Origin: Eubacteriales Family XIII. Incertae Sedis bacterium
Lineage (GTDB): Bacteria > Bacillota > Clostridia > Peptostreptococcales > Anaerovoracaceae
DNA: 64,000 nt
Assembly (NCBI GenBank): GCA_031264295.1
Contig: JAISED010000016.1
Location: forward strand, 1-64,000
Direction of reading: 5' to 3'
A model generated the notes under the pieces. The model was not told the DNA's origin. It saw only the letters and a list, made by a program, of their open reading frames with translations, and did no database searches. This document shows, piece after piece, positions 18,639 through 55,814 of the stretch (its first letter is position 1; each line of letters begins with the position of its first letter). Made by a program: the position numbers and the translations under genes.

Positions 18639-18790
18639 CTGCCCTTTGGCAGCTTCGCGCGACGTGGTCTGGGTCCTGCGCAATGTGAAACTGTGAACCT
18701 CGTCAGGTCCGGAAGGAAGCAGCGATAAGCGGATCTTCGCATGTGCCGCAGATCAGCCTTTTCCGGTTGTGCGAAGCGCCCAAAGGGCAG
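18639..18790 (+). ncRNA. ffs: Signal recognition particle RNA (4.5S-like)
   Basis: The conserved Ffh-binding hairpin is plain: GTCAGGTCCGGAAGGAAGC at about 18702-18720, continuing AGCGATAAG. The ends pair as a terminal stem: CTGCCCTTTGG (18639-18649) with CCAAAGGGCAG (18780-18790), and GCTTCGCGC with GCGAAGC just inside. It forms the SRP with Ffh for membrane targeting of nascent proteins. At about 150 nt it is longer than the ~100-nt small type and shorter than the Bacillus 6S-like form. Its position directly before dnaX is seen in other Firmicutes. Confidence 0.93.
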
Positions 18791-40976: not shown

Positions 40977-41051
40977 GCTAACGTGGCTCAATGGTAGAGC
41001 AGCGCATTCGTAATGCGCAGGTTGTGGGTTCGATTCCCACCGTTAGCTCCA
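40977..41051 (+). tRNA. tRNA-Thr (anticodon CGT)
   Basis: 75 bases fold into a complete cloverleaf. Acceptor stem GCTAACG/CGTTAGC, D stem GCTC/GAGC, anticodon stem GCGCA/TGCGC with loop TTCGTAA (anticodon CGT, reading ACG), T stem GTGGG/CCCAC with loop TTCGATT, discriminator T and encoded CCA. Own promoter and terminator; single gene. Confidence 0.97.
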
Positions 41052-41138: not shown

Positions 41139-41199
41139 ACTGTCGAAAATATCAGTAGAGAGCTTACATGATAATAACATGGGGAAGGAGTCACTGCCC

Positions 41200-41853
41200 A
41201 TGGAGAGACTTGCTTACAGCGAATTTATTACAGAAAAAATAGCCGATATCCCATATGGTCAGACTTTTCAGACCAACATCATAGCGGAAGCGGTTGCGGA
41301 TGAATATGTTATCTCTGTACATAAGGCAAAGCCCATTACCAACGTCACTTTGAAACGCTTGACAGACAGCGGCTTGATCGAACGTTACCAAAAAGGCGTG
41401 TATTATCGTGCCAAACAAACGGCTTTTGGCAAGGCTCATCCAAGCGAAGAGCTACTTGAGGTGCAGCTTCTCACTAGACGCGGTGACGAAGTCATCGGAT
41501 ATGAAACGGGTTTTTCGTTTATGAATAGGATGGGTTTGACAACGCTTGTCCCCAAAAAACGCGAGATAGCGACCAACGCCTATCGTAAAAATATAGATAA
41601 CAGATTCATCATTGTCAGAAAGCCGGTTGTCACAGTTAATGCCGACAATTTTCGCTATTTGCAGTTCCTTGATATCATCAGAGATCTGGCGGAGGCGCAT
41701 GTCGATGCGGAGAATCCTAAAGCCTTGCTTCATGCCTTTGCGGAAAGAAGTGAATTGAATATGATTAAGACTATGACGTATGCCAGACGGCATTACCCGC
41801 AAAAGACGCTGCTTAATCTGGTTGATGTTCTGGTGGAGGGGGGACGGACATGA
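41200..41853 (+). CDS. DUF6088/AbiEi-like antitoxin (transcriptional regulator)
   Basis: 217 residues from ATG 41200, with AAGGAG nine bases upstream; ATG 41179 overlaps that site. The N-terminal half is a winged helix (KPITNVTLKRLTDSGLIERY, KGVYYRAKQTAFGKAHPS), followed by DEVIGYETGFSFMNRMGLTT, characteristic of DUF6088/AbiEi type IV antitoxins, which repress the operon and counter a nucleotidyltransferase toxin. The stop overlaps a downstream ATG (ATGA), exactly where the toxin should begin, but that gene is broken. The antitoxin is therefore an orphan here. Confidence 0.8.
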   Translation: MERLAYSEFITEKIADIPYGQTFQTNIIAEAVADEYVISVHKAKPITNVTLKRLTDSGLIERYQKGVYYRAKQTAFGKAHPSEELLEVQLLTRRGDEVIGYETGFSFMNRMGLTTLVPKKREIATNAYRKNIDNRFIIVRKPVVTVNADNFRYLQFLDIIRDLAEAHVDAENPKALLHAFAERSELNMIKTMTYARRHYPQKTLLNLVDVLVEGGRT

Positions 41854-42064
41854 AGAGGAAGAAAGCAGAATCGGCAGCGACTTAGCTCAAAAACCCTTTA
41901 CCGAATTTCTGCTTTTCAAAGCGCTTGAAACCGACGCTAAGTTGAGGGCGACTTTTGCCGAAACGCAAAGGGTTTACGTCTTTAACGACGCAGATATAAT
42001 CCCGTTCGAGGAAGTAATCAAGCAAATGGGTCAACTATATGATATTTTACAGAGCTTGGGCTGA
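41850..42064 (+). pseudogene. Remnant of the partner gene of the DUF6088 antitoxin
   Basis: ATG 41850 overlaps the antitoxin stop and reads MKRKKAESAAT then stop. In another frame the sequence continues as LAQKPFTEFLLFKALETDAK, then AETQRVYVFNDADIIPFEEV and IKQMGQLYDILQSLG to TGA 42064, which looks like the true C-terminus of a real protein. Only about 60 residues remain, versus roughly 250-300 for an AbiEii-like nucleotidyltransferase; the middle is deleted and the frame shifted. Identity as AbiEii is inferred from the antitoxin's family. Confidence 0.5.
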
Positions 42065-42078
42065 TAAATAGCATAGTT

Positions 42079-42125
42079 ACGTCAGTAGGAGTAGGAGTAG
42101 GCGTAGCAGTAGCAGCATTAGGAGT
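42079..42125. repeat. Short low-complexity repeat
   Basis: Run of AGTAGG/AGTAGC hexamer-like words between the toxin remnant and the methyltransferase operon. Likely slippage-generated; it may move the distance between an upstream promoter and the operon. No function assigned. Confidence 0.6.
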
Positions 42126-42149
42126 ACGGCATGGAAGGTCGGTGATAAT

Positions 42150-42785
42150 GTGGCGGGGGCATATAGCGTATGGGATAGGCTTGCAAATAAATATGACCGG
42201 CTCTGGGTGCAGAAGTACTCGCTGACTCCAACCCGGCGCCGCGTCAGGCAGATCTTGTCCAACCGTTTTCACGGTGAGAACTTTACATTGCTGGATTTGG
42301 GGTGCGGGACGGGGCAGTTGCTCTGCGAGATGCGGGAAGACAGTCCGGACTGCCGCATGCTTGGCGTCGACAAATCACCGGAGATGATAAGATGCGCAAA
42401 TAAGCGGAGATTGGATATAGAGTTTGTCTGTTTAGATGTAGATAATGAAGATTTATCACAATATTTTACTGAGAGCGGTTTTAACGCCGTGACTTGCTGT
42501 CATTCATTTCCCTACTATAAAAACAAACCTGCAGTGATGGCCGAACTCTACAAGCTGCTGGATTCGGAGGGGATCGCCGTCTTCGCGCAGGCCTCGGTGA
42601 ATAGGCTTTATGACAAAACGGTGCTGCGCGTTGTGGAAGCGACAGCCGAAAAAGCCGATTATCTTTCCCGCGAAGCGTTTCGGGCGCTGGCGGAGAAATA
42701 TTTTGTAATTATAGAAGAATTTACAATATACGAGCGCTTTTATATGCCTTCAATCTGTGGATTTGTGCTGGGGAAACGCTTATGA
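42150..42785 (+). CDS. Class I SAM-dependent methyltransferase
   Basis: 211 residues, GTG start. LLDLGCGTGQLLCEM is the SAM-binding motif I; GVDKSPEMIRCAN is the acidic ribose contact; VTCCHSFPYYKNKPAVMAEL matches motif post-I; and AVFAQASVNRLYDKTVLRVV follows. The N-terminus (AYSVWDRLANKYDRLWVQKY) resembles UbiE/Tam-like small-molecule methyltransferases. First gene of a six-gene operon with three radical-SAM enzymes; its stop overlaps the next start. The substrate is likely the same product that the later genes act on. Confidence 0.87.
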   Translation: MAGAYSVWDRLANKYDRLWVQKYSLTPTRRRVRQILSNRFHGENFTLLDLGCGTGQLLCEMREDSPDCRMLGVDKSPEMIRCANKRRLDIEFVCLDVDNEDLSQYFTESGFNAVTCCHSFPYYKNKPAVMAELYKLLDSEGIAVFAQASVNRLYDKTVLRVVEATAEKADYLSREAFRALAEKYFVIIEEFTIYERFYMPSICGFVLGKRL

Positions 42786-44059
42786 AGATATTGTTGATTC
42801 GGCCTAAACCACATCGCAGCACTATCGGTCTGCAGAGCGTGATGATCTGCGAGCCGCTGGAATTGACGACCCTGGCGGCTGTGTTGCGGGCGAACGGGCA
42901 TATAGTCGTCGTCATTGATATGATTTTGGAACGCAGACCGCTTACATATTTTATTCGCGAAGAAAGGCCGGATCTGATTGGACTCACAGGGTATATAAGC
43001 CATATTGGGGTAATGAAGGATTACGCGCGTGTGATCAAAGCAGTTGACCGAAAAATCAGTGTCTGTGTGGGCGGCGTGCACGCGGCGGTCTGCCCGGAGG
43101 ATTTTAATGACCCGCATATTGACCATGTGTGTCAGACTGCGGAAGCCTTCTATAAAATTACCGATTGCGTCGATTTATCGCCGCGTTTGCCTGATCGGAA
43201 TCTGCCGGAAAGGTATTTGAAAAGGTATTATTATCTTTTTCAAAACCGCGCAGCGCTCATAAAAACATCATTCGGCTGCCCGTATAACTGCAATTTTTGT
43301 TTCTGCAAGGAAATCGCGTCCTATTCCGCCCGGGATATTGAAGATGTTATTGATGAGTTGACGACGATTTCTCAACAAGAGGTTTATATCGTAGACGACG
43401 ACTTTTTATTCAATCGCGATAGACTGATTAAATTTTGCGAGCTATTAGAAGCGCGGAATATCCGCAAGCATTTTCTGGTATACGGACGATCGGACTTTAT
43501 CGCCGCCAACGAGGATATCATCGGCAGGTTGGCGAAAAACGGGCTGACTGCCGTTATAGTAGGGCTGGAATCCGCCAGTCAGGATGAGTTGGATGCCTAC
43601 AATAAACACACAAAGCTCGGAGAAAACATCTCCGCCGTACGTATACTGAGGCGGCACAACATCGAATGTTACGCCACCGTGATTCTGAGAATGGATTGGG
43701 GGAAAACGGATTTCAAGAGGCTGTATCAGTTTTTGAAGGACCTCGACGTCGTATTTGTCAATCTCCAGCCGTTTACACCCATGCCGGGAACTGATTATTG
43801 GGACGAGTACAAAAGCCGTTTACTCATTCCATATGAGCAGCCGGAAAAATGGGATATGGCGCATCTGGTGGTGGAGGCCGACAAGTTGTCGGCGCGGCAA
43901 TATTATGCGCAAATCGTCAAGCTATACTATAAAATTACCATTACGCCAAAGCACACGGTCTATATGTTCAAACGCTATGGCCTAAAACAAACTGTGAAAT
44001 TATCCGGTGGCGCGCTGCGGATTACCATGCAGTATCTCGCCAAAATCATCCGGGGGTGA
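42782..44059 (+). CDS. Radical SAM protein, cobalamin-binding architecture (first of three)
   Basis: 425 residues. N-terminal Rossmann-like domain (KILLIRPKPH, DLIGLTGYISHIGVMKDYAR, VCVGGVHAAVCPEDF) of the B12-binding type, lacking a DxHxxG motif, so base-off cobalamin binding if any. The radical-SAM core follows with GCPYNCNFCFC, cluster ligands C166, C170, C173, then VYIVDDDFLFNRDR and GLESASQDELDAYNKHT. Class B radical-SAM enzymes commonly methylate unactivated carbons or rearrange and cyclise natural products and lipids. It overlaps the methyltransferase gene. Similar in layout to the next two genes. Confidence 0.88.
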   Translation: MKILLIRPKPHRSTIGLQSVMICEPLELTTLAAVLRANGHIVVVIDMILERRPLTYFIREERPDLIGLTGYISHIGVMKDYARVIKAVDRKISVCVGGVHAAVCPEDFNDPHIDHVCQTAEAFYKITDCVDLSPRLPDRNLPERYLKRYYYLFQNRAALIKTSFGCPYNCNFCFCKEIASYSARDIEDVIDELTTISQQEVYIVDDDFLFNRDRLIKFCELLEARNIRKHFLVYGRSDFIAANEDIIGRLAKNGLTAVIVGLESASQDELDAYNKHTKLGENISAVRILRRHNIECYATVILRMDWGKTDFKRLYQFLKDLDVVFVNLQPFTPMPGTDYWDEYKSRLLIPYEQPEKWDMAHLVVEADKLSARQYYAQIVKLYYKITITPKHTVYMFKRYGLKQTVKLSGGALRITMQYLAKIIRG

Positions 44060-44063
44060 AAGC

Positions 44064-45413
44064 TTGAAAATATTATTTATGCGCCCGCCAGCACCCAATA
44101 TATTAAAACACCTGCAAATCCTCAACAGCGAGCCATTGGAGCTGGAATATTTACATACTGTTGCGCGGCGGCGCGGTTGGGACGACATGATTTATGATGG
44201 CTTCAACACTAAAAAAAGCGCGCGGGATGTCATGAAAAGTTTTCAGCCGGATGTAGTGGCGGTCACAGGCTATATCACGCAGGAAAACCTGATGAAAAAA
44301 TATGTGAAGACCGCGAAAGAGGTAAATCCGTCCGTTGTCACCGTTGTCGGCGGTGTTCATGTGCAGCTCAACTTCGAAAGGATGTATACCGCGGATGTGG
44401 ATTATGTCTTCCGCAGTGAGAATGTGAACGCGTTCGGAGATTTGCTGGCGTACTTTATGGGCAGTGCTTTGGATTTATCTACGGTAAGCGGACTTTGCTA
44501 CCGCGAAAACGGCGAATGGCGGGCAAACAAGCTGCTGCCTTTTAACATCAACGATCTGCCCATCCCAGACCGTTCGTTTTTTTATCAAAATAAGTCATGG
44601 TTCCGTTATCTCGATTTGACTGAGGTAGCGACGCTGAAAACCGCCATTTCATGCCCATATAATTGCAATTTCTGCTACTGCACATGCCTGGGAGGCGGCA
44701 GGTATTCCGTACGGGATCTTGATAAGGTGATGGATGAACTGGAGGGGCTTGATTGCGAAACGGTGCTGATCGCCGATGATGTGTTTCTGTTCGACGAGGG
44801 ACGCGTCTGGGGCTTTATCAATGAAGTCAGGCGGCGCAATATCAAAAAGCAATATCTTTGTTACGGGCGCGCCGATTACATCGCCGCTCATCCCGAACAG
44901 ATCAAAGCTCTTGCCGAAATAGGCTTTGTCTACTTCTTTGTGGGGCTGGAAGCCATTACCGACAGGGAACTGGAAAGCTATAACAAACAGATCACCGCCG
45001 ATGTGAATGTGCGTTGCACGGAGGCCGTCCACGCGGCGGGAGCGCGCTGCTTTGCTCTGATGATCGCGCCTGCCGACGCTACAAAGCAGTATTTTACCGA
45101 CCTGTATCAATGGGTGCTGGCTCATGAGGTGAAATATGTTACGGTTTCCATTTTCACGCCGATTCCCGGCACGCCGCTGTATGAGGAATATAAAGACAAA
45201 CTGATCACTGACGATATTGAGGAATGGGATTTTCTGCATCTGGTGGCGCCGCCGACGCGTCTGACGAAACGGGCGTTTTATCTTGAGTATTATAAGCTGA
45301 CCAACCGCCTATACCGATTGGCGAAAAAAACCGGAGCGTATGATTTTATGGATTTGGAGTATTACAAAAATGTTGTGATGGAATACTTCCGGCAAAAGGC
45401 GCGGGAAAAATGA
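44064..45413 (+). CDS. Radical SAM protein, cobalamin-binding architecture (second of three)
   Basis: 449 residues from TTG 44064 (GGGGTGAAAGC in front); longer frames run into the previous gene. Same layout as its neighbour: KILFMRPPAPN, SEPLELEYLHTVARRRGWDD, VTGYITQENLMKKYV, VVGGVHVQLNFE, cluster CPYNCNFCYC with C197, C201, C204, then LIADDVFLFDEGRV and VGLEAITDRELESYNKQITA. Shared phrases with the first enzyme show the two arose by duplication. Stop overlaps the third gene (ATGA). Confidence 0.88.
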   Translation: MKILFMRPPAPNILKHLQILNSEPLELEYLHTVARRRGWDDMIYDGFNTKKSARDVMKSFQPDVVAVTGYITQENLMKKYVKTAKEVNPSVVTVVGGVHVQLNFERMYTADVDYVFRSENVNAFGDLLAYFMGSALDLSTVSGLCYRENGEWRANKLLPFNINDLPIPDRSFFYQNKSWFRYLDLTEVATLKTAISCPYNCNFCYCTCLGGGRYSVRDLDKVMDELEGLDCETVLIADDVFLFDEGRVWGFINEVRRRNIKKQYLCYGRADYIAAHPEQIKALAEIGFVYFFVGLEAITDRELESYNKQITADVNVRCTEAVHAAGARCFALMIAPADATKQYFTDLYQWVLAHEVKYVTVSIFTPIPGTPLYEEYKDKLITDDIEEWDFLHLVAPPTRLTKRAFYLEYYKLTNRLYRLAKKTGAYDFMDLEYYKNVVMEYFRQKAREK

Positions 45414-46720
45414 AAATATACTTTATTCAGTCCACGCCATATGATTCGAGCGGCGGACTTGTTAAAAAATCCAGACTTTATTTCGTCGGCTTGGCGCCGG
45501 CTATATTGGCGGCGCTTGTGGACGATTGGGAGTTCGAAGTTTGTCTCGAAACCATTGAACCTGTCGATTTCGATTCCGACGCGGACATCATAGCGGTTTC
45601 CGGCATGGGGCACGCCATCATACGAAGCATTGAAATAGCTAAGGCATTTAGCGCCCGTGGGAAAACCGTGGTTATGGGCGGCTATATGGCCAGCCTGATG
45701 CCGGAGGAGGCGCTAAAATACTGTAACAGTGTAGTGATCGGCGATGCTGAGGAGGTCTTCCCGCAGTTGCTTGCGGATTACCGAAACGGCTGCATGAAAT
45801 CAAGATATTATATGCCGCTCGCTAAGTTGAGCTATCCCTTGCCGCGTTATGAGCTGTTGACGGCGAAGAAGATCGGGAACTTCCTGCCGGTGCAGGCGGG
45901 GCGGGGCTGTCCCCATTCCTGCAGCTTCTGCTCGGTGGCTTGCCTGTATCGGGGCCGCTATCTTAAGCGGAACATCGACGAGGTGATGCGGGATATCCGC
46001 GAGGTCAAACGCTTGGGGTATAAAAGATTCCTGCTGCTCGACGACAATATTTGTTCCGATAAGGCGTATATGCGAGAGCTTTGCGGGCAGATAAAGACGC
46101 TTAAAATGCAATGGTTTTCGCAATGTTCAATCCAGATTGCCGATGACGGCGAACTGCTTGCGCTGGTTGCGGACAGCGGCTGCGCGGCGCTTTCTTTCGG
46201 CTTGGAGAGTATTTCGCAGGAAAGCCTGAGCTATATGAACAAGGGCTGGGCTAAGGTGTGCGATTATGAGCGCCAACTTGCGAAAATCGCCGCTGCGGGG
46301 ATAGATCTGTCAACTGAAATGGTCGTTGGCGCGGATGGCGACACGCCGGAAAGCATAGAACAAACAGCTGATTTTATCGTCCTCAATAAAATCGCCATAC
46401 CGCGATTTTATATTTTAACACCCATCCCCGGCACTGATTTTTTCAAGGAAACGCAGGCGCAGGGGCGAATCGTAAATGAGGACATTTACAGCTATAACGG
46501 CGCGCAGGCTGTTCATAGGCCGCTGCGCATGACGGCGGAGGAATTGACGGCGGCCTATTGGAAGCTCTATCTGCAGGTGTTTTCCGTATGGGCGATCATC
46601 CGGCGAACCCTTTTGAAGAGGGGATTTTGGCGCGCGCCGCTCAAACACTTCTTCTACTTCTATGTGAACCTGTATTATCGTTATCAAATCCGGCGGGGCA
46701 TACCCCCGAACATCATATAG
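45410..46720 (+). CDS. Radical SAM protein, cobalamin-binding architecture (third of three)
   Basis: 436 residues. IYFIQSTPYDSSGGLVKKSR start, B12-binding-like domain (IIAVSGMGHAIIRSIEIAKA, VVMGGYMASLMPEEALKYCN, VIGDAEEVFPQLL), cluster CPHSCSFCSV with C167, C171, C174, then FLLLDDNICSDKAYM, SFGLESISQESLSYMNKGW and the TPIPGTDFF typical of class B enzymes. More diverged from the other two and closer to the general B12-radical SAM type with a GDAEE motif. The C-terminal LKHFFYFYVNLYYRYQIRRG region is hydrophobic/basic, suggesting a membrane or lipid-like substrate. Confidence 0.88.
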   Translation: MKIYFIQSTPYDSSGGLVKKSRLYFVGLAPAILAALVDDWEFEVCLETIEPVDFDSDADIIAVSGMGHAIIRSIEIAKAFSARGKTVVMGGYMASLMPEEALKYCNSVVIGDAEEVFPQLLADYRNGCMKSRYYMPLAKLSYPLPRYELLTAKKIGNFLPVQAGRGCPHSCSFCSVACLYRGRYLKRNIDEVMRDIREVKRLGYKRFLLLDDNICSDKAYMRELCGQIKTLKMQWFSQCSIQIADDGELLALVADSGCAALSFGLESISQESLSYMNKGWAKVCDYERQLAKIAAAGIDLSTEMVVGADGDTPESIEQTADFIVLNKIAIPRFYILTPIPGTDFFKETQAQGRIVNEDIYSYNGAQAVHRPLRMTAEELTAAYWKLYLQVFSVWAIIRRTLLKRGFWRAPLKHFFYFYVNLYYRYQIRRGIPPNII

Positions 46721-46852
46721 GCAAGCTCCGAAGCGTGCCTGTAGCGGGCTTACAAAAATTTGCGGCGCATCTTCCGGCCGGGGGAAGACCGACCGAAGGC
46801 TTTGCGGGATTTTTTGAAGGCCGCATGCGTTGCGGCGGAATGGGTGTTTAAT

Positions 46853-47950
46853 ATGGAACTGTTTGAGTTTAACAGCGCTGTTAAATATGAAAAGGCCATG
46901 CTGAGTCACTATCAATCCGACCCACGGTTTATAAACAATAAAAGCGGGATATTTCATATCGTCTGCAATCCGGCGGGCGCGTTTTACCAAAATACGGTTC
47001 AAAAGATGATCGGGGTAAAATCCGGCAATGATGGTCGGCGTCAAAATGAGATTTTGTGTCAATGCGTACTGATAAAGCATAATCAATTTGACGCGTTGAC
47101 TGTCGCCTTTTTTGAAGCGCAAGAAAACGTCGGTGAGGCAGTGCGGTTGATGATGGATTACGCGGCGGATTATGGAAGGCACATGGGCGCGAAGCGGATG
47201 ATTGCGGCGCTGGACGGTCACTGCAACTATGGCATAGGATTTTCCCGCCTTGATCCCCATGCAGCACCCTTGTTCGGCGAAAGCCGCAACCCTGAATATT
47301 ACAACGCCTATTTTGAAAATGGATATTATAAAATAGGATTTTCGAGTTTCTGGGGAGAGCTTGATGATATTTCTAATCAACTGAATGGGATTATGCAGCG
47401 TATTGAAGAACGCACAACCCAGATTAAAACGCAGTGCGCCGATTTTCGGCAATTTCCCGTTCACCTGCGCAGATACACCGATTTAAGCAATCAAATATTT
47501 GCTAAGCATTGGTATTATTTTCATCGGACGTATAATGAGGATTTAGAGCTTTTTAAAACGATGAAACCCTTGTTGTCCCCATGTAACTTGATCTTTGCTC
47601 AAAAGAACGGCCGGGATATAGGATATAGCTTATTCTATCCCGACTTCAATGAACTCGTGCCCATAGGCGGCGAAGCGAACGCAGGAACATTTTTGAAACA
47701 CAAACTGCTGCACCGCCCTATACATACTGTTAAAATCGCAGAGATTGGCATACTGCCTGAATATCACTCATCCGCCGTGGTACTAACACTGTTTAGGGAA
47801 GTTTGCCGACAGGTGAAACGCCAGTATCCTCATATAAAGCGCGTGGTGAGCAGTTGGATCATGGATGAAAACACGGCGTCCCAAAACATAACCAGACGCT
47901 TTGCGCCTAATTTATATGGAAGTTATGCGGCTTATGAAAAAGAAATTTGA
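46853..47950 (+). CDS. GNAT-like protein, function unknown
   Basis: 365 residues from ATG 46853; the frame extends upstream without a supported start. Recognisable pieces: VQKMIGVKSGNDGRRQNEIL, AALDGHCNYGIGFSRLDPHA, FGESRNPEYYNAYFENGYYK, RYTDLSNQIFAKHWYYFHRT and VKIAEIGILPEYHSSAVVLT. The last half has the strand-helix pattern of GNAT-type acyltransferases (IGILPEYxxxxV...LF). It overlaps the next gene by 17 bases and is separated from the radical-SAM genes by a 132-base gap. Probably transfers an acyl or aminoacyl group within the same pathway; this is inference from fold and operon. Confidence 0.6.
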   Translation: MELFEFNSAVKYEKAMLSHYQSDPRFINNKSGIFHIVCNPAGAFYQNTVQKMIGVKSGNDGRRQNEILCQCVLIKHNQFDALTVAFFEAQENVGEAVRLMMDYAADYGRHMGAKRMIAALDGHCNYGIGFSRLDPHAAPLFGESRNPEYYNAYFENGYYKIGFSSFWGELDDISNQLNGIMQRIEERTTQIKTQCADFRQFPVHLRRYTDLSNQIFAKHWYYFHRTYNEDLELFKTMKPLLSPCNLIFAQKNGRDIGYSLFYPDFNELVPIGGEANAGTFLKHKLLHRPIHTVKIAEIGILPEYHSSAVVLTLFREVCRQVKRQYPHIKRVVSSWIMDENTASQNITRRFAPNLYGSYAAYEKEI

Positions 47951-48893
47951 GGGTGAGATACATAAGGGAATTCCGAACGGTATAGGGATCAATAAATGGC
48001 TGGACAGCGGCAGTTTGCTCGCGCTTGCCAAAGCGAGCGATACGCCGTTTTCGGTGGTGACGCATCAGGAATACACTTGCGTGGAATACCGCATGAAGAT
48101 GAACTTGTTCACATTCGGGAAGTATAAATGCGGTGTTCAGATGACAGTGATTGCTCCGCCTATATCAGTGGACAGTACGGCTTATACAGGCGATGTGAAC
48201 CGATTGATTGCGGATTATAAGCATAGGAAGGGGATATTTTTAATACTGAATTTACCCGCACTGCCTTTGCTAACTGAAAAAGCGGCGGTAGGCGAGACCC
48301 TGTCGTCCTGTGTTTTTCATAAGCGTTTCAGCTCATTCGAGGAATACCTTTTGGCGCTGCGCGGCAGTTATCGCAGGAGGCTCAAGAAGGCGCTCGAAAA
48401 AGGCGGCGCGCTGCGCGTTGAGCAAATCAGGAATGCGGACTTTACCGATGAACTGCACGGGCTTTACCGGCAAGTGCGGCAGCGCTCGAATTATCCGTTG
48501 GAAACCCTGCGTCCGGATTTTTTCAGGGGGTTTGACGGCAATATTTTCGTTTTTTATGATGGCGCTTCGCCGGTCGCTTTCGCGGCGGTGAAACAGTTTG
48601 ATGAAGAGCTGGATTTTGTATTCGGCGGCATGAATTATGCCGCGCGAGATGAATTAGACCTGTATTACAACATGCTTTTATTTATCCTCCGGCGTGGGAT
48701 TGAATGCGGCGCGCGGCGGATCGATTTCGGCCAGACTGCGGAGCATTCCAAACAGCGGATCGGCTGTGTATTGGAAAAACGCTATATGGCGGCATTTTCA
48801 GGCAACCGATTGATCAACGGCTTGCTGCGTTTATTCGGCAATGCCTTGACTTATCAAGCCCCTAAAGAGGCTTATCAATGTTTTAAGAAATAA
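47934..48893 (+). CDS. FemAB/GNAT-type acyltransferase-like protein
   Basis: 319 residues from ATG 47934; nearby ATG 47925 is possible. FHKRFSSFEEYLLALRGSYR followed by RRLKKALEKGG is the peptidogalycan/FemAB-type GNAT start (sf.ey...l....rr.lkka). IFVFYDGASPVAFAAVKQFD, LDFVFGGMNYAARDELDLYY and ARRIDFGQTAEHSKQRIGC complete the fold. Relatives transfer amino-acyl or acyl groups in cell-wall, capsule or natural-product synthesis. It ends the operon, 12 bases before the convergent MBL-fold gene. Confidence 0.75.
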   Translation: MKKKFEGEIHKGIPNGIGINKWLDSGSLLALAKASDTPFSVVTHQEYTCVEYRMKMNLFTFGKYKCGVQMTVIAPPISVDSTAYTGDVNRLIADYKHRKGIFLILNLPALPLLTEKAAVGETLSSCVFHKRFSSFEEYLLALRGSYRRRLKKALEKGGALRVEQIRNADFTDELHGLYRQVRQRSNYPLETLRPDFFRGFDGNIFVFYDGASPVAFAAVKQFDEELDFVFGGMNYAARDELDLYYNMLLFILRRGIECGARRIDFGQTAEHSKQRIGCVLEKRYMAAFSGNRLINGLLRLFGNALTYQAPKEAYQCFKK

Positions 48894-48904: not shown

Positions 48905-49897
48905 TTATTCTGCGGGCGTATGGGGGTAGTAGATATACGCATGTTCCGCCTGAATTCTATATATCTTCTTTCTGAGGCGCAGATAATCAAGGTGCGACAG
49001 GCATTCGCCCATAGCAAACCATTTTTGCATCGGAGGGAAGGTGTCCCAGCTCTTTGAACGGATCTTCCATTTCATCCTGGAGGCGATCTCATACGCGGAA
49101 AGACCGGGCGCGTCTATTATAATATTATGTACATGCTCAAGGCGATGTTCATGGTGAACGATCAAATCGTTAACGCGCTCGTGATAGTTTCCGGGTTCTC
49201 TGTGACTGGGAAGAGAGTGCTCTACAGGATAGTCAAAGCCTTTTTTGAGGCTATGAATGTAGTCGCCCAGCGAGTCCTCCACATCCACCCATGCGGTTAT
49301 ATTAGGAGTTATATCAAAGAGCACGTGATCGCCGGTAATCATAGTTTTCTGCTCTTCCATCCAGAACATAGCGTTGCCGGGGGTGTGACCGGGGACGAGC
49401 ACTGTTTGCAGGCGATAGGCGCCGATATTCAAAATCTCCCCATCTAGCAAACCTTGGCAGCGTGCACCGTCGACTCCTAGAGCATAGATTTTAGTTAAGT
49501 TAGTTTTCTCTATTCGTGAAAGCAATTCATCAGGGAACCCCTCTGTAGTAAAGCGAAGATGGGTGGCTGCCCTTGTGTCGCCGGATATTATACGAAGCAA
49601 ATAACGTAAGTCGATGTCGCTGAGAAAAATACGTCTGCCCGGAGCGATAAAATCATTTACCAGACCTGAGTGGTCGGCGTGCAGGTGTGTAAGCAAGATG
49701 TCGCGTCTTTCGGGTGCTGAGTTCAATTCGGCAAGGCCGGATTCCAATGCGTCACGGCACGCATGCATACGGAATCCCAGATCGATCAATAAATCACTCT
49801 CGTCACCGCGAATGAAATAACTGTTGAGTTCTTTGAGCGGATTCTTGGGAAGCGGAACCGATATACGGTAAAAATCATCCATTATTTTTTCAATCAT
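48905..49897 (-). CDS. Metallo-beta-lactamase-fold hydrolase
   Basis: 330 residues. THLHADHSGLVNDF (HxHxDH metal motif), LVPGHTPGNAMFWMEEQ with the later metal His, MITGDHVLFDITPNI, and a C-terminal helical region (LSAYEIASRMKWKIRSKSWD) like that of LACTB2-type or SgraIR-type thioesterase-like members. Cytosolic hydrolase of thioesters, lactones or similar; substrate not predictable. Transcribed toward the radical-SAM operon, so not necessarily part of it. Confidence 0.88.
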   Translation of the reverse strand: MIEKIMDDFYRISVPLPKNPLKELNSYFIRGDESDLLIDLGFRMHACRDALESGLAELNSAPERRDILLTHLHADHSGLVNDFIAPGRRIFLSDIDLRYLLRIISGDTRAATHLRFTTEGFPDELLSRIEKTNLTKIYALGVDGARCQGLLDGEILNIGAYRLQTVLVPGHTPGNAMFWMEEQKTMITGDHVLFDITPNITAWVDVEDSLGDYIHSLKKGFDYPVEHSLPSHREPGNYHERVNDLIVHHEHRLEHVHNIIIDAPGLSAYEIASRMKWKIRSKSWDTFPPMQKWFAMGECLSHLDYLRLRKKIYRIQAEHAYIYYPHTPAE

Positions 49898-50276: not shown

Positions 50277-53200
50277 GTGAAAATGAGAAAAAGACAAACG
50301 GTTTTAGCGATGATCCTTTCGATGACTTTGATTGTCACGCAGTCATGTCCTTTTGTATTCGCGCAAGCGCTGTCGATGAATTCGACGGCGGGAACGGCGG
50401 CTGCAACAGGCGCGGCGAGTATGTCAGAAAGTCAGGCCGTTTCGGCGGAGGATTCAAGCGCAGGGGAAGGCCGCAGGGTCGTCAACACATTTGATGAGTT
50501 GCGGAAAGCGGCTGCGGACAATGAAGTATCGATCATTGCACTTGGCAGTGATATATTCATTGACAAGAAGCTTAATGTAAACCGCAATAAGGATCTTGTA
50601 ATCGACGGCGGGGTAAACATGTACGGCCTTTATGAAAGCCACAAGCTTCCACAGGGCGTAGCTGATTACACATTGACGTTCAGGGGCGGCTACAAAAATC
50701 TGACGTTCAAAAACCTTAAAATGACGGGGGTGAGTTACGGAGCGTCCGTGCACGCGCCCGTAGACGACGCAAGAGTCGTATTCGACAATATCGAATATGA
50801 AGGACCGGCTCTGTATTATGGGGAGAATAAGGGAAGTACGGGCGTTTTGACGAACAGTAAGGTTGTGCTTGATACATTTACGAAAGGGGTAAAATACACC
50901 TCGGAAGTCATGCATTCGTACAATGTGGAACTCAACGGAAATGTGAGTATCGTTAAAAATGAGACAAGCGGCAACGATTATGATGAGATTTTCTACTTGT
51001 CAAAAAGTGGCGGCGATTTGATCGTGGGCGATATGGCAAATGTAAGTATTGTCAATTATTCAACTGCCAAGGAATCCATTTATTGGAGCGGTTTGATGTT
51101 TGCGAGCGGCGGTCAGGCGAATACCCACAAGTTCATAGTGGGCAAAGGCGCCAAGTTTTCATATGTCGGCCACGGCGGTTGTGTGATCGAAGAATGGCCG
51201 CTGGATGAGTTCCGGATTGGCGAGGACGCCAAAGTGGAGATCTCACTCAGCATCCCAAATTTAAAGAAGAAGACAGAGTATGCGAAACACGACAACGGAG
51301 CGTACTTCAGCGCGGACAATATTATAATAGAAAAAAATGCCGCATGGGACTATACACTGAAGAGCGATGTTAAATACAAGGATGAATCAATGCTCGGCGT
51401 GGGCAATCTTGTTGTTGAAGAGGGCGCCAAACTGCGAGTCAAAGCGCCGGTGAATACTGTGGCCGAAAATCTGGTCATACTTGTTGGGGCTAAGCCGACG
51501 ATCAGCTTGAATAATCCTGCTGAGGTTTTGTTCTATAACGGTAACAAAACAGGCTCAGACACTTGGGCGCTGGCGGGAGCGCGGAGCGGCGCCGGATATG
51601 GATTATCAAATGCCGGCGATTCGCTTATACATTTTGACGGTGAGGGAGTGACAATTTGGTCTGCAGAAAATGCTCCGATAGGAATAAATGAATGGACTGT
51701 GGATAATACAGAGTCAATGCGGCAGTGGGGAGTAAAGCCCGACGAATCGTTTTCTATGGCTGCATACATGTCAAATATAGGCGCCATTAAAGATACGGTG
51801 ATAAAGGATTCGGCTGCGGCAGACATCGCAAAAGAATTGACCACACTAAAAGGTGTCAGTGTAATACGGTTTACAGGCAGGAATACGGAATTGATTTCTA
51901 ATATCTACGCCAAGCATTATCTACTGGATGGCGTAGGGAATTTAGTGAAGAGACCTTACTATTTTCAAAGCGCAAATCCTCTGCCGCTGATAAACGCGGC
52001 GGAAGGCGAATATAGTTATGAACCGAATCTATATTCTATGGGGGCAGATGAAAACTCATACTGTTTTGATGAGGCGGCAACTCAAAAAGCGAGTGCTAAT
52101 AACGGATGCACTCTGTCGCTTGCTGAGGGGCTTATACGTTTCGCGCCTGCGGCGGCGGAGGTCAGCGTGTTCTATGCGCTGGATGTGAACAACAATAAGA
52201 TCCCGGATTATATTGAGGGAAGTGTTGCACCGGGGCAGCATATAATAATTGATACAAGCGGCGCGGCCACTCAGTTTAATGAAGGCGACGGATTTACAAG
52301 CGGCGGCGTAGAGGTGTGGTTGGTTTCCACTGACGATGCCGGTAATATAATAATGAAGGAAAAAGGCGAAGCCGGTGAATATCATGTCAGTCCTATTGCG
52401 GACGGTGAAATATTGGGCTTGGACGACGACGGTAAGAAGATAACGGTGACATATAAAGGCGCCGCGGCATCGTATGAGATATCGGTTGCGGGGACTGACA
52501 GTGAAACGGACGGAACCGGTAATCCAGGAAGCGGAACGGCGCCTGGCGGTGGTGCAGGCGGAACCGGGAGCGGGACATTGCCTGGCGGCGGTTCTGATGG
52601 ATCCGGAAGTGGGACATTGCCTAGCGGCGGTGCAGGCAGCGGTGGTTCTGGTGAAGCAGGCGGATCTGGGAATCCCGGAAGCGGGACATTGCCTGGCGGC
52701 GGTGCAGGCGGAACAGGTGAAACCGGCAGTGGGACATTGCCTGACGGCGGTGCAGGCAGCGGTGGTTCTGGTGAGGCAGGCGGATCGGGGAATCCCGGAA
52801 GCGGGACATTGCCTGGCGGCGGTGTAGGCGGAACAGGTGAAACCGGAAGTGGGACATTGCCTGGCGGCGGTTCTGGCGGAACAGGTGAAACCGGAAGTGG
52901 GACATTGCCTGGCGGCGGTTCTGGCGGAACAGGTGAAACCGGCAGTGGGACATTGCCTGGCGGCGGTGCAGATGGAACCGGGAGCGGTACATTACCGGGC
53001 GGCAATGTAGGTGAAACTGGTACTGGCAGCGCAGGCGGCAGTGGATCGGGTGACGGCTCAGGTAAACCCGGCACTGGAACAGGAGGAGTTGATAATCCTG
53101 GAGGCGGGACTACATCAGGCAGCGCATTGACACCGGATAGCGGTGGTGGTTCTGCTGGAGGTTTGGATGGAACCGGAAGCGAGACGACATCCAGTGGTGC

Positions 53201-55814
53201 TGTAACGCCGAATGGCGGCGGTTCGGATAGTTCTGGCAGTATGAACTCAGAGAGCAAGGTAAACCAACACGTAATAATTGATACAAGCGGAGCAAAAACA
53301 CAGTTCAAAAGCGGAGAAAAGTTCTCTGCAGATGGTATAAATGTGTGGTTAGTCGACACAGATGATAATGGCAATATAATAAGGAAAGAAAAAGTTAATC
53401 CAGATGAGTATATAGTAAAACCGATAACAGTAGGTCAGTTGTTGGATCTGAGCGATAACGGTAAAGAAATAATCGTATCATATAGAGAATCAGAAACATC
53501 ATATATCATAATCGTAAAAGATGACAATGAAACGGAAGCTACAGATAGCGGTTTAGAAGAATCAAATAGCAGTTCAGATGGAACCGGAAGTGAGACAACA
53601 TCAGGCAGTGCAGTGACTCCAGGCGATGGTTCAGGCAACTCCGGAAGCGGAACAACATCAGGCGGTGCAGTGACACCGGACAGTGGTTCAGGAGAAACCG
53701 GCAGTGGAATGACATCAGGTGGTGCAGTGACTCCAGGCGATGGTTCGGGTGACTCTGGAAGCGTGACAACATCAGGTAACGGAACAACAGATGCCGGTAC
53801 CAGTAGTTCTGGTAGTACAAATGCAGAAAACAAGGTAAGCCAACACATAATAATTGATACGAGCGGAGCAAAAACACAGTTCAAAAGCGGAGAAAAGTTC
53901 TCTGCAGATGGTATAAATGTATGGTTAGTCGACACAGATGATAATGGCAATATAATAAAGAAGGAAAAAGTTAATCCAGATGAGTATATAGTAAAACCGA
54001 TAACAGTAGGTCAGTTGTTGGAACTGGGTGATAATGGTAAAGAAATAACCATATCGTATAGAGAATCGGAAACGTCGTATATCATAATCGTAAAAGGTGA
54101 CAATGAAACGGAAGCTACAGATAGCGGTTTAGAAGAATCAAATAGCAGTTCAGATGGAACCGTAAGTGAGACAACATCAGGCAGTGCAGTGACTCCAGGC
54201 GATGGTTCGGGCGGAACCGGAAACGTGACAACATCAGGTGGTGCAGTGACTCCGGGCGATGGTTCGGGTGACTCTGGAAGCGTGACAACATCAGGCGGTG
54301 CAGTGACTCCAGGCGATGGTTCAGGCAACTCTGGCAGTGGAACGACATCAGGCAGTGCAGTGGCACCGAGCGACGGTTCAGACAGAACCGAAAGTGAGAC
54401 AACATCAGGCAGTGCAGTGACTCCAGGCGATGGTTCGGGCGGAACCGGAAACGTGACAACATCAGGGGGTGCAGTGATTCCAAGCGATGGTTCAGGCAAC
54501 TCCGGAAGCGGAACAACATCGGGCAGCGCGGTGATGCCGAATGGCAGTGGCTCTGGTGAAACTGGCAGCGGAATGACATCAGGCGGTGCAGTGACACCGA
54601 ACGATGGTACTGGTGACTCCAAAAGTGGAATAACATCAGGTGGCGCAGTGATGCCGAATGGCAGTGGCTCTGGTGAAACTGGCAGTGCAGTGACACCGAG
54701 CGACGGTTCAGACAGAACCGAAAGTGAGACAACATCAGGCAGTGCAGTGACTCCAGGCAATGGCTCAGGCGACTCCGGAAGCGGAACAACGCCGAACGGC
54801 GGCTCAGGCACGACGGGCGGCTCAGGAGGATCGGGCAGCAGCACGAGTGGAACAGGCGGCTCAGTAGACCCAGGTAAGGGAACAACGCCGAGCAATGGTT
54901 CAGGCGGAACAACGTCGAGCGGCAGTTCGACAGGCGGGATGACTACTGATAGCACCGCTAGTGGAAACGCAGGCGCGGGTTCCGGAAATAACGAAAACGC
55001 AGGCGGGACTGCTCCAAGTGGCGGTGGAACCGGCGTTTCCGGCGGCGGAAATAACAACGGTTCAAGAGTAAACGCGTCGGGCAATGCCGCAGGAAATGGC
55101 AGCACTAACGGTATAAGCAACGGAGCAAGGATGGACAATACCAGCATAATAGGCAATGAAGACACGCCTGCCGGTTCAAGCGATATCACTGATTTTATGA
55201 GCCGCGCGCTTTCGGCAGACGGACAAAATGCTGCGGGCATGTGGTGGGATCCAATGAATTCGCCGAGCCAAGAATGGCCGGAAGCGGACATCACTCATAC
55301 AATGGGAAATAGCACAATGAGCAAGCAATTAATAGCTCAGACGGGTGATGGAACAAGTGAGCGCGTGCAGACATTGACAGAGCTGAAAGAACAGAAAGTG
55401 CCAACGTTTAAAATCAATGCTCAGGAAGTACCGCTTTTCGGTGGAAACGGAACCGCAGTGTGGGCGCTGATGAATTTAATCTTGATGCTGCTGAGTCTTG
55501 CAATGACAATAAGCGCCGCGTCTAAGGTGATTAGAAAGCGTGAATATGAAATCGACAGTGAAATCGTTGAAAAATACGGCGATAAGGCAGAGCATAAAAC
55601 ATTAGCTCCATTGAGACTTATGGAAGCAGCAATGGGAGCGGTAGCAGTGATGATGTTCGTTGTGACAGAGAATATAGAAAATCTGATGGTTATTTTCGAT
55701 AAATGGACATGGGTAATGGCAGCAATACTTGTAGTGCAAGCAGCGATTCTCATCATGGCGTCTAAAGAAGAGACCAACAACAATATGACAGATGATGTTC
55801 AAGTCGCTCAATAA
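50277..55814 (+). CDS. Giant secreted adhesin-like protein with Big-type and low-complexity repeats and three C-terminal membrane helices
   Basis: 1845 residues; GTG start six bases after AAGGAGG. Signal peptide QTVLAMILSMTLIVTQSCPF with VFAQA cleavage region. Residues ~60-440 are a beta-helix/pectate-lyase-like adhesive region (LVIDGGVNMYGL, LTFKNLKMTG, FIVGKGAKFSYVG). Three Big_3-like modules start QH(V/I)IIDTSGA(K/A)TQF near residues 654, 996 and 1186; the last two are nearly identical. Between them lie G/S/T-rich repeats: GSGTLPGGG (52510-53000) and TTSGGAVTPGDGSG (53580-54790). The end has three hydrophobic helices near 1727, 1785 and 1812 instead of an LPXTG anchor. Likely surface-exposed and repeat-length variable. 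An efficient terminator follows. Confidence 0.85.
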   Translation: MKMRKRQTVLAMILSMTLIVTQSCPFVFAQALSMNSTAGTAAATGAASMSESQAVSAEDSSAGEGRRVVNTFDELRKAAADNEVSIIALGSDIFIDKKLNVNRNKDLVIDGGVNMYGLYESHKLPQGVADYTLTFRGGYKNLTFKNLKMTGVSYGASVHAPVDDARVVFDNIEYEGPALYYGENKGSTGVLTNSKVVLDTFTKGVKYTSEVMHSYNVELNGNVSIVKNETSGNDYDEIFYLSKSGGDLIVGDMANVSIVNYSTAKESIYWSGLMFASGGQANTHKFIVGKGAKFSYVGHGGCVIEEWPLDEFRIGEDAKVEISLSIPNLKKKTEYAKHDNGAYFSADNIIIEKNAAWDYTLKSDVKYKDESMLGVGNLVVEEGAKLRVKAPVNTVAENLVILVGAKPTISLNNPAEVLFYNGNKTGSDTWALAGARSGAGYGLSNAGDSLIHFDGEGVTIWSAENAPIGINEWTVDNTESMRQWGVKPDESFSMAAYMSNIGAIKDTVIKDSAAADIAKELTTLKGVSVIRFTGRNTELISNIYAKHYLLDGVGNLVKRPYYFQSANPLPLINAAEGEYSYEPNLYSMGADENSYCFDEAATQKASANNGCTLSLAEGLIRFAPAAAEVSVFYALDVNNNKIPDYIEGSVAPGQHIIIDTSGAATQFNEGDGFTSGGVEVWLVSTDDAGNIIMKEKGEAGEYHVSPIADGEILGLDDDGKKITVTYKGAAASYEISVAGTDSETDGTGNPGSGTAPGGGAGGTGSGTLPGGGSDGSGSGTLPSGGAGSGGSGEAGGSGNPGSGTLPGGGAGGTGETGSGTLPDGGAGSGGSGEAGGSGNPGSGTLPGGGVGGTGETGSGTLPGGGSGGTGETGSGTLPGGGSGGTGETGSGTLPGGGADGTGSGTLPGGNVGETGTGSAGGSGSGDGSGKPGTGTGGVDNPGGGTTSGSALTPDSGGGSAGGLDGTGSETTSSGAVTPNGGGSDSSGSMNSESKVNQHVIIDTSGAKTQFKSGEKFSADGINVWLVDTDDNGNIIRKEKVNPDEYIVKPITVGQLLDLSDNGKEIIVSYRESETSYIIIVKDDNETEATDSGLEESNSSSDGTGSETTSGSAVTPGDGSGNSGSGTTSGGAVTPDSGSGETGSGMTSGGAVTPGDGSGDSGSVTTSGNGTTDAGTSSSGSTNAENKVSQHIIIDTSGAKTQFKSGEKFSADGINVWLVDTDDNGNIIKKEKVNPDEYIVKPITVGQLLELGDNGKEITISYRESETSYIIIVKGDNETEATDSGLEESNSSSDGTVSETTSGSAVTPGDGSGGTGNVTTSGGAVTPGDGSGDSGSVTTSGGAVTPGDGSGNSGSGTTSGSAVAPSDGSDRTESETTSGSAVTPGDGSGGTGNVTTSGGAVIPSDGSGNSGSGTTSGSAVMPNGSGSGETGSGMTSGGAVTPNDGTGDSKSGITSGGAVMPNGSGSGETGSAVTPSDGSDRTESETTSGSAVTPGNGSGDSGSGTTPNGGSGTTGGSGGSGSSTSGTGGSVDPGKGTTPSNGSGGTTSSGSSTGGMTTDSTASGNAGAGSGNNENAGGTAPSGGGTGVSGGGNNNGSRVNASGNAAGNGSTNGISNGARMDNTSIIGNEDTPAGSSDITDFMSRALSADGQNAAGMWWDPMNSPSQEWPEADITHTMGNSTMSKQLIAQTGDGTSERVQTLTELKEQKVPTFKINAQEVPLFGGNGTAVWALMNLILMLLSLAMTISAASKVIRKREYEIDSEIVEKYGDKAEHKTLAPLRLMEAAMGAVAVMMFVVTENIENLMVIFDKWTWVMAAILVVQAAILIMASKEETNNNMTDDVQVAQ
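52510..53060. repeat. Tandem DNA repeats encoding GSGTLPGGG units
   Basis: Repeats built from GGAAGCGGGACATTGCCTGG and CGGCGGT(GCA/TCT)GGCGGAACAG words in 27-, 48- and 111-base combinations, in frame. Copies are nearly identical, so the number probably changes by slippage or recombination. Confidence 0.9.
53570..54790. repeat. Tandem DNA repeats encoding TTSG(G/S)AVTPGDGSG units
   Basis: Units of about 57 bases: ACATCAGGCGGTGCAGTGAC followed by TCCAGGCGATGGTTC and a variable stretch. About 15 copies in two blocks separated by a Big_3-like module. Frame is preserved throughout. Confidence 0.88.

Follow-up and report, generated by a model that had tools for sequence, protein, structure and literature searches.

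Bacterial ceramide synthesis, as described for Caulobacter, E. coli B and Rubrobacter-like loci, involves serine palmitoyltransferase (Spt), the bacterial ceramide synthase bCerS and CerR, together with AcpR and AasR. The E. coli gene yghO and Caulobacter CC_1154 both appear in one listing as aca, the gene for the dihydroceramide N-acyltransferase (PMC9386255), and ceramide formation in Caulobacter has been shown to require CC_1154 (PMC11324152). Some sphingolipid regions also carry genes for a methyltransferase and an archaetidylserine decarboxylase. A second group of enzymes relevant here is the cobalamin-binding radical S-adenosylmethionine (SAM) family. A recent study of BchE describes most of its members as methylases and ascribes ring formation or rearrangement to BchE, OxsB, HpnJ, PbsB and the ladderane enzymes (PMC13142503). 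In the present work, we describe an operon in which relatives of both groups are joined: six genes at positions 42150-48893 of the window, a 64,000-nucleotide stretch of contig JAISED010000016.1 from an Eubacteriales Family XIII. Incertae Sedis bacterium (Anaerovoracaceae). The operon encodes a methyltransferase (MT), three B12-binding radical SAM proteins (rS1, rS2 and rS3), a two-GNAT-domain N-acyltransferase (GN5) and a FemAB-like transferase (FEM). Judged by the families of its enzymes, it is somewhat more probably than otherwise a horizontally spreading, self-contained module of anaerobic Firmicutes that would make an N-acylated, ceramide-like amide lipid.

A gene-by-gene re-reading of the window places the six genes on the same (forward) strand in close-packed order, and the re-read open reading frames (ORFs) bear out the gene count, strand and overlaps given in the original prediction, which had been made from the letters of the window. 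MT (42150..42785), with a GTG start, is a class I SAM-dependent methyltransferase of the UbiE/BioC-like type with an intact LDLGCGTGQ motif; it matches Pfam Methyltransf_25/31/11 and, in NCBIfam, gives sub-cutoff BioC/UbiE-type matches only. Its end overlaps rS1 (42782..44059) at an ATGA, and rS2 (44064..45413), which begins with TTG, starts four bases past the rS1 stop. A second ATGA overlap joins rS2 to rS3 (45410..46720), which is followed by a 132-nt gap, GN5 (46853..47950) and, with a 17-nt overlap, FEM (47934..48893).

The same six genes recur well beyond this genome. Carriers were drawn from an rS3 scan of genome contigs, a phylum sample, a class sample of 391 genomes and Acetoanaerobium noterae; the phylum and class samples yielded 19 carrier genomes, which with A. 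noterae and the window genome brings the total to 21, representing at least 13 families. The identical order MT-rS1-rS2-rS3-GN5-FEM is found in three further genomes (L071, L107 and L112), and all six genes are clustered in a different order in Thermincola (L033/L064 and L065), in L066, L067, L068, L069, L103, L104 and L105, and in A. noterae; the order in L104, for example, is GN5-FEM-MT-rS1-rS2-rS3. The rS3 scan returned a Thermincola ferriacetica metagenome-assembled genome (L033), in which the six genes are clustered with a fourth radical SAM gene (rSx) and genes for a FeeM-type GNAT protein and a phosphatidylserine decarboxylase, with an acyl-CoA synthetase gene nearby. Because all six genes recur together in many other genomes, their clustering is far beyond chance. 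In the class sample, the genomes with FEM and those with a strong rS3 are the same 13 of 391, neither gene occurring apart, and beyond these 13 the identity of rS3 relatives falls from at least 51% to at most 37%. In the phylum sample, seven of the eight genomes with a strong GN5 hold the cluster, the eighth (G575, L070) having GN5 alone. The module is patchy, occurring in approximately 2-3% of the genomes sampled. The recurring gene order and the perfect co-occurrence of FEM and rS3 strongly support the earlier suggestion of a dedicated and undescribed pathway, for which recurrence of the six-gene order in other genomes had been put forward as a check. A characterized pathway was sought in Pfam, NCBIfam, PDB sequences and the literature and no match was found, nor did the literature searches return a description of the six-gene module. 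The operon is real, conserved, mobile and uncharacterized; its enzyme families are known and their combination is not.

The module consists of a core and optional parts. The genes rS1, rS3, GN5 and FEM are present in every carrier, with partial copies at contig edges (the L111 and L106 clusters are cut by contig ends). MT, orthologs of which occur in 12 aligned clusters, tracks canonical rS2, both genes being either present or absent together (absent in L108, L109, L110, L111, L113 and L114). Since MT is present wherever canonical rS2 is and absent elsewhere, this suggests that MT acts on an rS2 branch of the pathway. The fourth radical SAM gene, rSx, is optional, a view supported by its internally deleted remnant in L066 (6032-6240), of which the first 31 and last 41 residues are left. 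Among the carriers, at least A. noterae DSL2 comes from a culture; a 2.63-Mb record labelled as an Acetoanaerobium noterae plasmid (NZ_CP154629.1) resembles a chromosome. The rS3 gene of the Thermincola metagenome-assembled genome carries what looks like a frameshift close to the 3' end (L033, 11224-11310) and is intact in the close relative L065. In two genomes of one genus, an RT-5 RNA and a reverse-transcriptase gene are inserted within the cluster or at its end (L108, 14284-15680; L112, 7765-9152).

The three radical SAM proteins all possess the class B layout, with an N-terminal B12-binding domain and a CX3CX2C core. Pfam detects B12-binding and Radical_SAM domains in each of them, and all three clusters are intact, as had been read earlier from the sequence. 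The four cysteines of rS1 (Cys166, 170, 173 and 175, forming CX3CX2CxC) are invariant, with the fourth present in 17 of 17 sequences, and canonical rS2 has the same CX3CX2CxC arrangement, its fourth cysteine being invariant in 13 of 13. In rS3, an extra invariant cysteine, Cys178, lies four residues past the motif (CX3CX2CX3C), and Cys239 is likewise invariant. The most conserved gene of the module is rS3, with 63-69% identity to the orthologs of most other families and 51-60% to the most divergent. As the resemblance of these proteins to HpnR, BchE, PhpK, HpnJ and others in NCBIfam is in every case sub-cutoff, none belongs to a named equivalog. For example, rS2 is HpnR/BchE-like over its full length, aligning at 159 and 124 bits, respectively, and thereby shares with those enzymes the B12-binding and radical SAM domains and the CX3CX2C motif; however, the curated cutoffs are 650 bits for HpnR (TIGR04367), where 159 bits is the best score of the three proteins, and 481 bits for BchE (TIGR02026), where the best is 126 bits (rS1). 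HpnR and BchE also lack the extra invariant cysteine that rS1 and rS2 carry two residues past the motif and rS3 four. The multi-enzyme lipid clusters of the ladderane type (TIGR04072) resemble the module in having several B12-binding radical SAM enzymes that are proposed to act on lipid chains, but the radical SAM proteins described here score 51-79 bits where the cutoff is 360, and the module has no fatty-acid-elongation genes.

Phylogenetic analysis placed rS1, rS2, rSx and rS3 in separate ortholog groups (the rS1 clade having 17 members). The first three group in a single clade; HpnR is excluded from it with full support, BchE also falls outside it, and rS3 belongs to another lineage. The first two proteins of the operon, approximately 32-37% identical, had been described in the original prediction as clear duplicates; they are indeed paralogues, but not the products of local duplication, each being an ancient ortholog line that extends across families. 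Because rS1 and rS2 form separate ortholog groups across families, the two copies in the window are old paralogues kept as different enzymes. With regard to their supply of cofactor, the host genome (86% complete) contains two cobalamin riboswitches and CobS was not detected in it, which is consistent with cobamide uptake; in an Rfam search, neither the operon nor any of 14 related loci gave a cobalamin riboswitch.

Other clusters of consecutive B12-binding radical SAM genes were also encountered. Four to five rS3-like genes stand in a row with GNAT-type genes in L073 (5520-12736), L074 (3633-10371), L075, L077 and, on a plasmid of Citrobacter portucalensis, L086 (2847-11765). A GH3-type acyl-adenylating gene is present in the L073 and L086 clusters, and the latter also has genes for a PAP2 phosphatase and a fatty acid desaturase. 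The clusters of the host's own family (e.g., L073) and L086 resemble the operon in their succession of radical SAM and GNAT-type genes, but differ in that they hold no orthologs of MT, GN5 or FEM and their radical SAM proteins are 28-35% identical and fall in separate clades. The L073-L078 clusters were rejected as relatives of the operon, having no GN5, FEM or MT orthologs, and this second kind of cluster appears to represent a further pathway, likewise undescribed, for a lipid or metabolite.

The distribution of the module points to horizontal transfer. A strong ortholog of rS2 was found in none of 198 genomes of the host's own family (best match 82 bits vs. 1045 for rS2 against itself), and in the maximum-likelihood tree the window copies of rS1, rS2 and rS3 nest, with 100% bootstrap, with genomes of two other families (f107 and f190), the same ones in which the gene order is identical. 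From this grouping, and because the sampled relatives of the host's own family lack these genes, the operon was probably acquired horizontally. Upstream of it lie a tRNA-Thr(cgt) gene (40977-41051) and, directly before the operon and outside the pathway, an AbiE-like pair on the forward strand (41179..42064) made up of an intact DUF6088 (AbiEi-like) gene and a short ORF resembling the decayed remnant of its partner. The base composition of the operon is not distinct from that of its neighbouring genes, so the transfer was not very recent or the donor was of similar composition.

The acyltransferase GN5 provides the principal link to lipids. No Pfam family matched it at an E-value of 0.001, a weak GNAT match aside, and tblastn searches against plasmids tied it to YghO. 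When 17 GN5 orthologs were aligned with seven YghO/bCerS proteins using hhalign, the resulting probability was 99.9% (E 3e-37) over 358 of 368 columns, while FEM, serving as a negative control against the same profile, gave 7.6%. By these measures GN5 is a full-length, two-GNAT-domain homologue of the bCerS/Aca/YghO superfamily. Relatives of GN5 are found in characteristic surroundings. In E. coli, Pseudomonas and Klebsiella, the homologue adjoins genes for an Spt-like pyridoxal-phosphate enzyme, an acyl carrier protein (ACP), an epimerase (CerR) and a fatty acyl-AMP ligase; in Rubrobacter and Streptomyces it is flanked by an alpha-oxoamine synthase (AOS)-type gene and a reductase/epimerase gene; and in Acidisoma it adjoins a short-chain dehydrogenase/reductase gene and an AOS-type gene. 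Homologues in Sphingomonas and Diaphorobacter lie among lptFG and lipid genes, most plasmid-borne homologues adjoin serine-palmitoyltransferase genes, and Tunicatimonas has the only homologue among those examined that lacks a lipid context. The module itself differs from bacterial ceramide synthesis in having no Spt/AOS or CerR gene in any cluster map, and in having three to four B12-binding radical SAM enzymes and a FemAB-like transferase. An AOS query against the window genome (86% complete) gave 25 bits at best, and of 18 other carriers, eight, mostly rated 98-100% complete, yielded no AOS match. Given this absence, the amine used by GN5 would come from a source other than Spt. The Thermincola/G476 clusters contain genes for a FeeM-type N-acyl amino acid synthase and a phosphatidylserine decarboxylase (the latter comparable to the decarboxylase genes of sphingolipid regions noted above), and the L114 cluster has a gene for a pyridoxal amino-acid decarboxylase; these genes hint that the acylated amine may be amino-acid-derived.

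The second transferase, FEM, matches Acetyltransf_6 (PF13480) at 33 bits against a gathering cutoff of 22, and this family is found in all nine FEM orthologs. No relative of FEM was found in the PDB at E<1, and a scan of viral contigs found none there. Homologues of FEM outside the module reside in lipid-gene clusters, for example on a Nostoc plasmid and a rhizobial plasmid, amid genes for desaturase, acyl-dehydrogenase, aminotransferase and cyclopropane-fatty-acid-synthase-like proteins.

Taken as a whole, the enzyme families suggest the following pathway. GN5 would transfer a fatty acyl group to an amine other than an Spt-made sphingoid base, and FEM would add a second acyl or aminoacyl group. 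The core enzymes rS1 and rS3, with rS2 and elsewhere rSx, would use bound cobalamin and a 5'-deoxyadenosyl radical to act on unactivated carbons, leading either to C-methylation, as in HpnR, or to formation of C-C bonds or rings, as in BchE and OxsB; sequence alone does not decide between methylation and ring formation. MT may add a polar or an O- or N-methyl group on the rS2 branch. The original prediction had leaned towards a modified lipid or wall component. The lipid part of it is favoured by the homology of GN5 to ceramide N-acyltransferases, the lipid-gene neighbourhoods of FEM homologues and the accessory FeeM and phosphatidylserine decarboxylase genes; nothing was found for the wall.

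Several observations weigh against a ceramide-like amide lipid. The identity of GN5 to bCerS-type proteins is just 17-24%, and many YghO-like proteins of Firmicutes (L044-L063 and L079-L081) are nearer to E. coli YghO than GN5 is, with no Spt gene beside them in the stretch examined. Because of these many Firmicutes proteins without a neighbouring Spt gene, the superfamily appears broader than ceramide synthases, and membership of GN5 is no proof of a ceramide-synthase-like activity. The core contains no genes for acyl activation, ACP, backbone formation or export. AlphaFold2 models built from two-sequence alignments (pLDDT 41 for GN5 and 46 for FEM) were too poor for use. Finally, most of the evidence could also be explained by an acylated metabolite that is soluble.

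It is conceivable, if rather unlikely, that the module makes such a soluble or secreted small molecule, for instance an N-acylated signal or antibiotic, with its enzymes acting on a short-chain or polar scaffold. A patchy, horizontally moved cluster of low frequency is typical of accessory metabolites, and the structural relatives of the radical SAM proteins detected by sequence are mostly natural-product enzymes (OxsB, AprD4, CysS and TokK). However, exporter, resistance and regulatory genes never recur with the module, and the GN5 and FEM families are found in lipid-gene contexts. A pathway that modifies a cofactor, a quinone, a tetrapyrrole or a hopanoid, which the two GNAT proteins would acylate or adapt, is quite improbable: HpnR and BchE are the nearest curated families to rS1 and rS2, and MT is of the UbiE/BioC type, but the scores, as given above, are far under the curated cutoffs, the rS1/rS2/rSx clade stands apart from both families, and the accessory genes that turned up are of lipid or amide type. 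A modification of the cell wall, in which FEM would attach a radical-SAM-modified group to peptidoglycan, is slightly less credible still. PF04339, annotated as "peptidogalycan biosynthesis/recognition", occurs in four of nine FEM orthologs, but FEM matches Acetyltransf_6 and not the FemABX family itself, GN5 groups with ceramide N-acyltransferases, genes for muropeptides or lipid II never recur in the module, and no neighbourhood supporting tRNA-dependent interpeptide-bridge formation by FEM was found. Finally, a sphingolipid cluster with Spt, ACP and CerR encoded elsewhere in the genome, to which the superfamily membership of GN5 would point, is highly improbable, since no Spt was found in the 86% complete window genome or in 8 of the 18 other carriers, on which ground the known sphingolipid pathway was rejected, and no cluster map contains a CerR-like gene.

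A few further features of the window lie outside the pathway. An imperfect GGAGTA/GTAGCA hexamer repeat is situated just upstream of MT (42083-42127). On the right flank, a convergent gene for a metallo-beta-lactamase-fold hydrolase (48905..49897, reverse strand) is absent among the conserved neighbours of the cluster elsewhere, and beyond it, at 50277-55814, an 1845-residue ORF encodes a probable surface protein in which very long repeats rich in Gly, Ser, Thr and Pro are combined with a hydrophobic segment at the C-terminus. A bacterial small signal recognition particle RNA gene is located at 18667-18766.

A conserved four-gene core of two B12-binding radical SAM lineages and two acyltransferases, shared by at least 13 families including those of Thermincola and Acetoanaerobium, indicates a single metabolite that is as yet undescribed. 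It may tentatively be proposed that this metabolite is a ceramide-like amide lipid of a new class, which anaerobic Firmicutes would make independently of serine palmitoyltransferase by means of a compact module that moves between families, and that two to four B12-binding radical SAM enzymes would build or branch the backbone or acyl chain and a bCerS-type N-acyltransferase would form the amide. If the product is a lipid, an Spt-independent, ceramide-like class would be added to bacterial membranes, and the repertoire of cobalamin-radical reactions on unactivated carbon would gain several new members.

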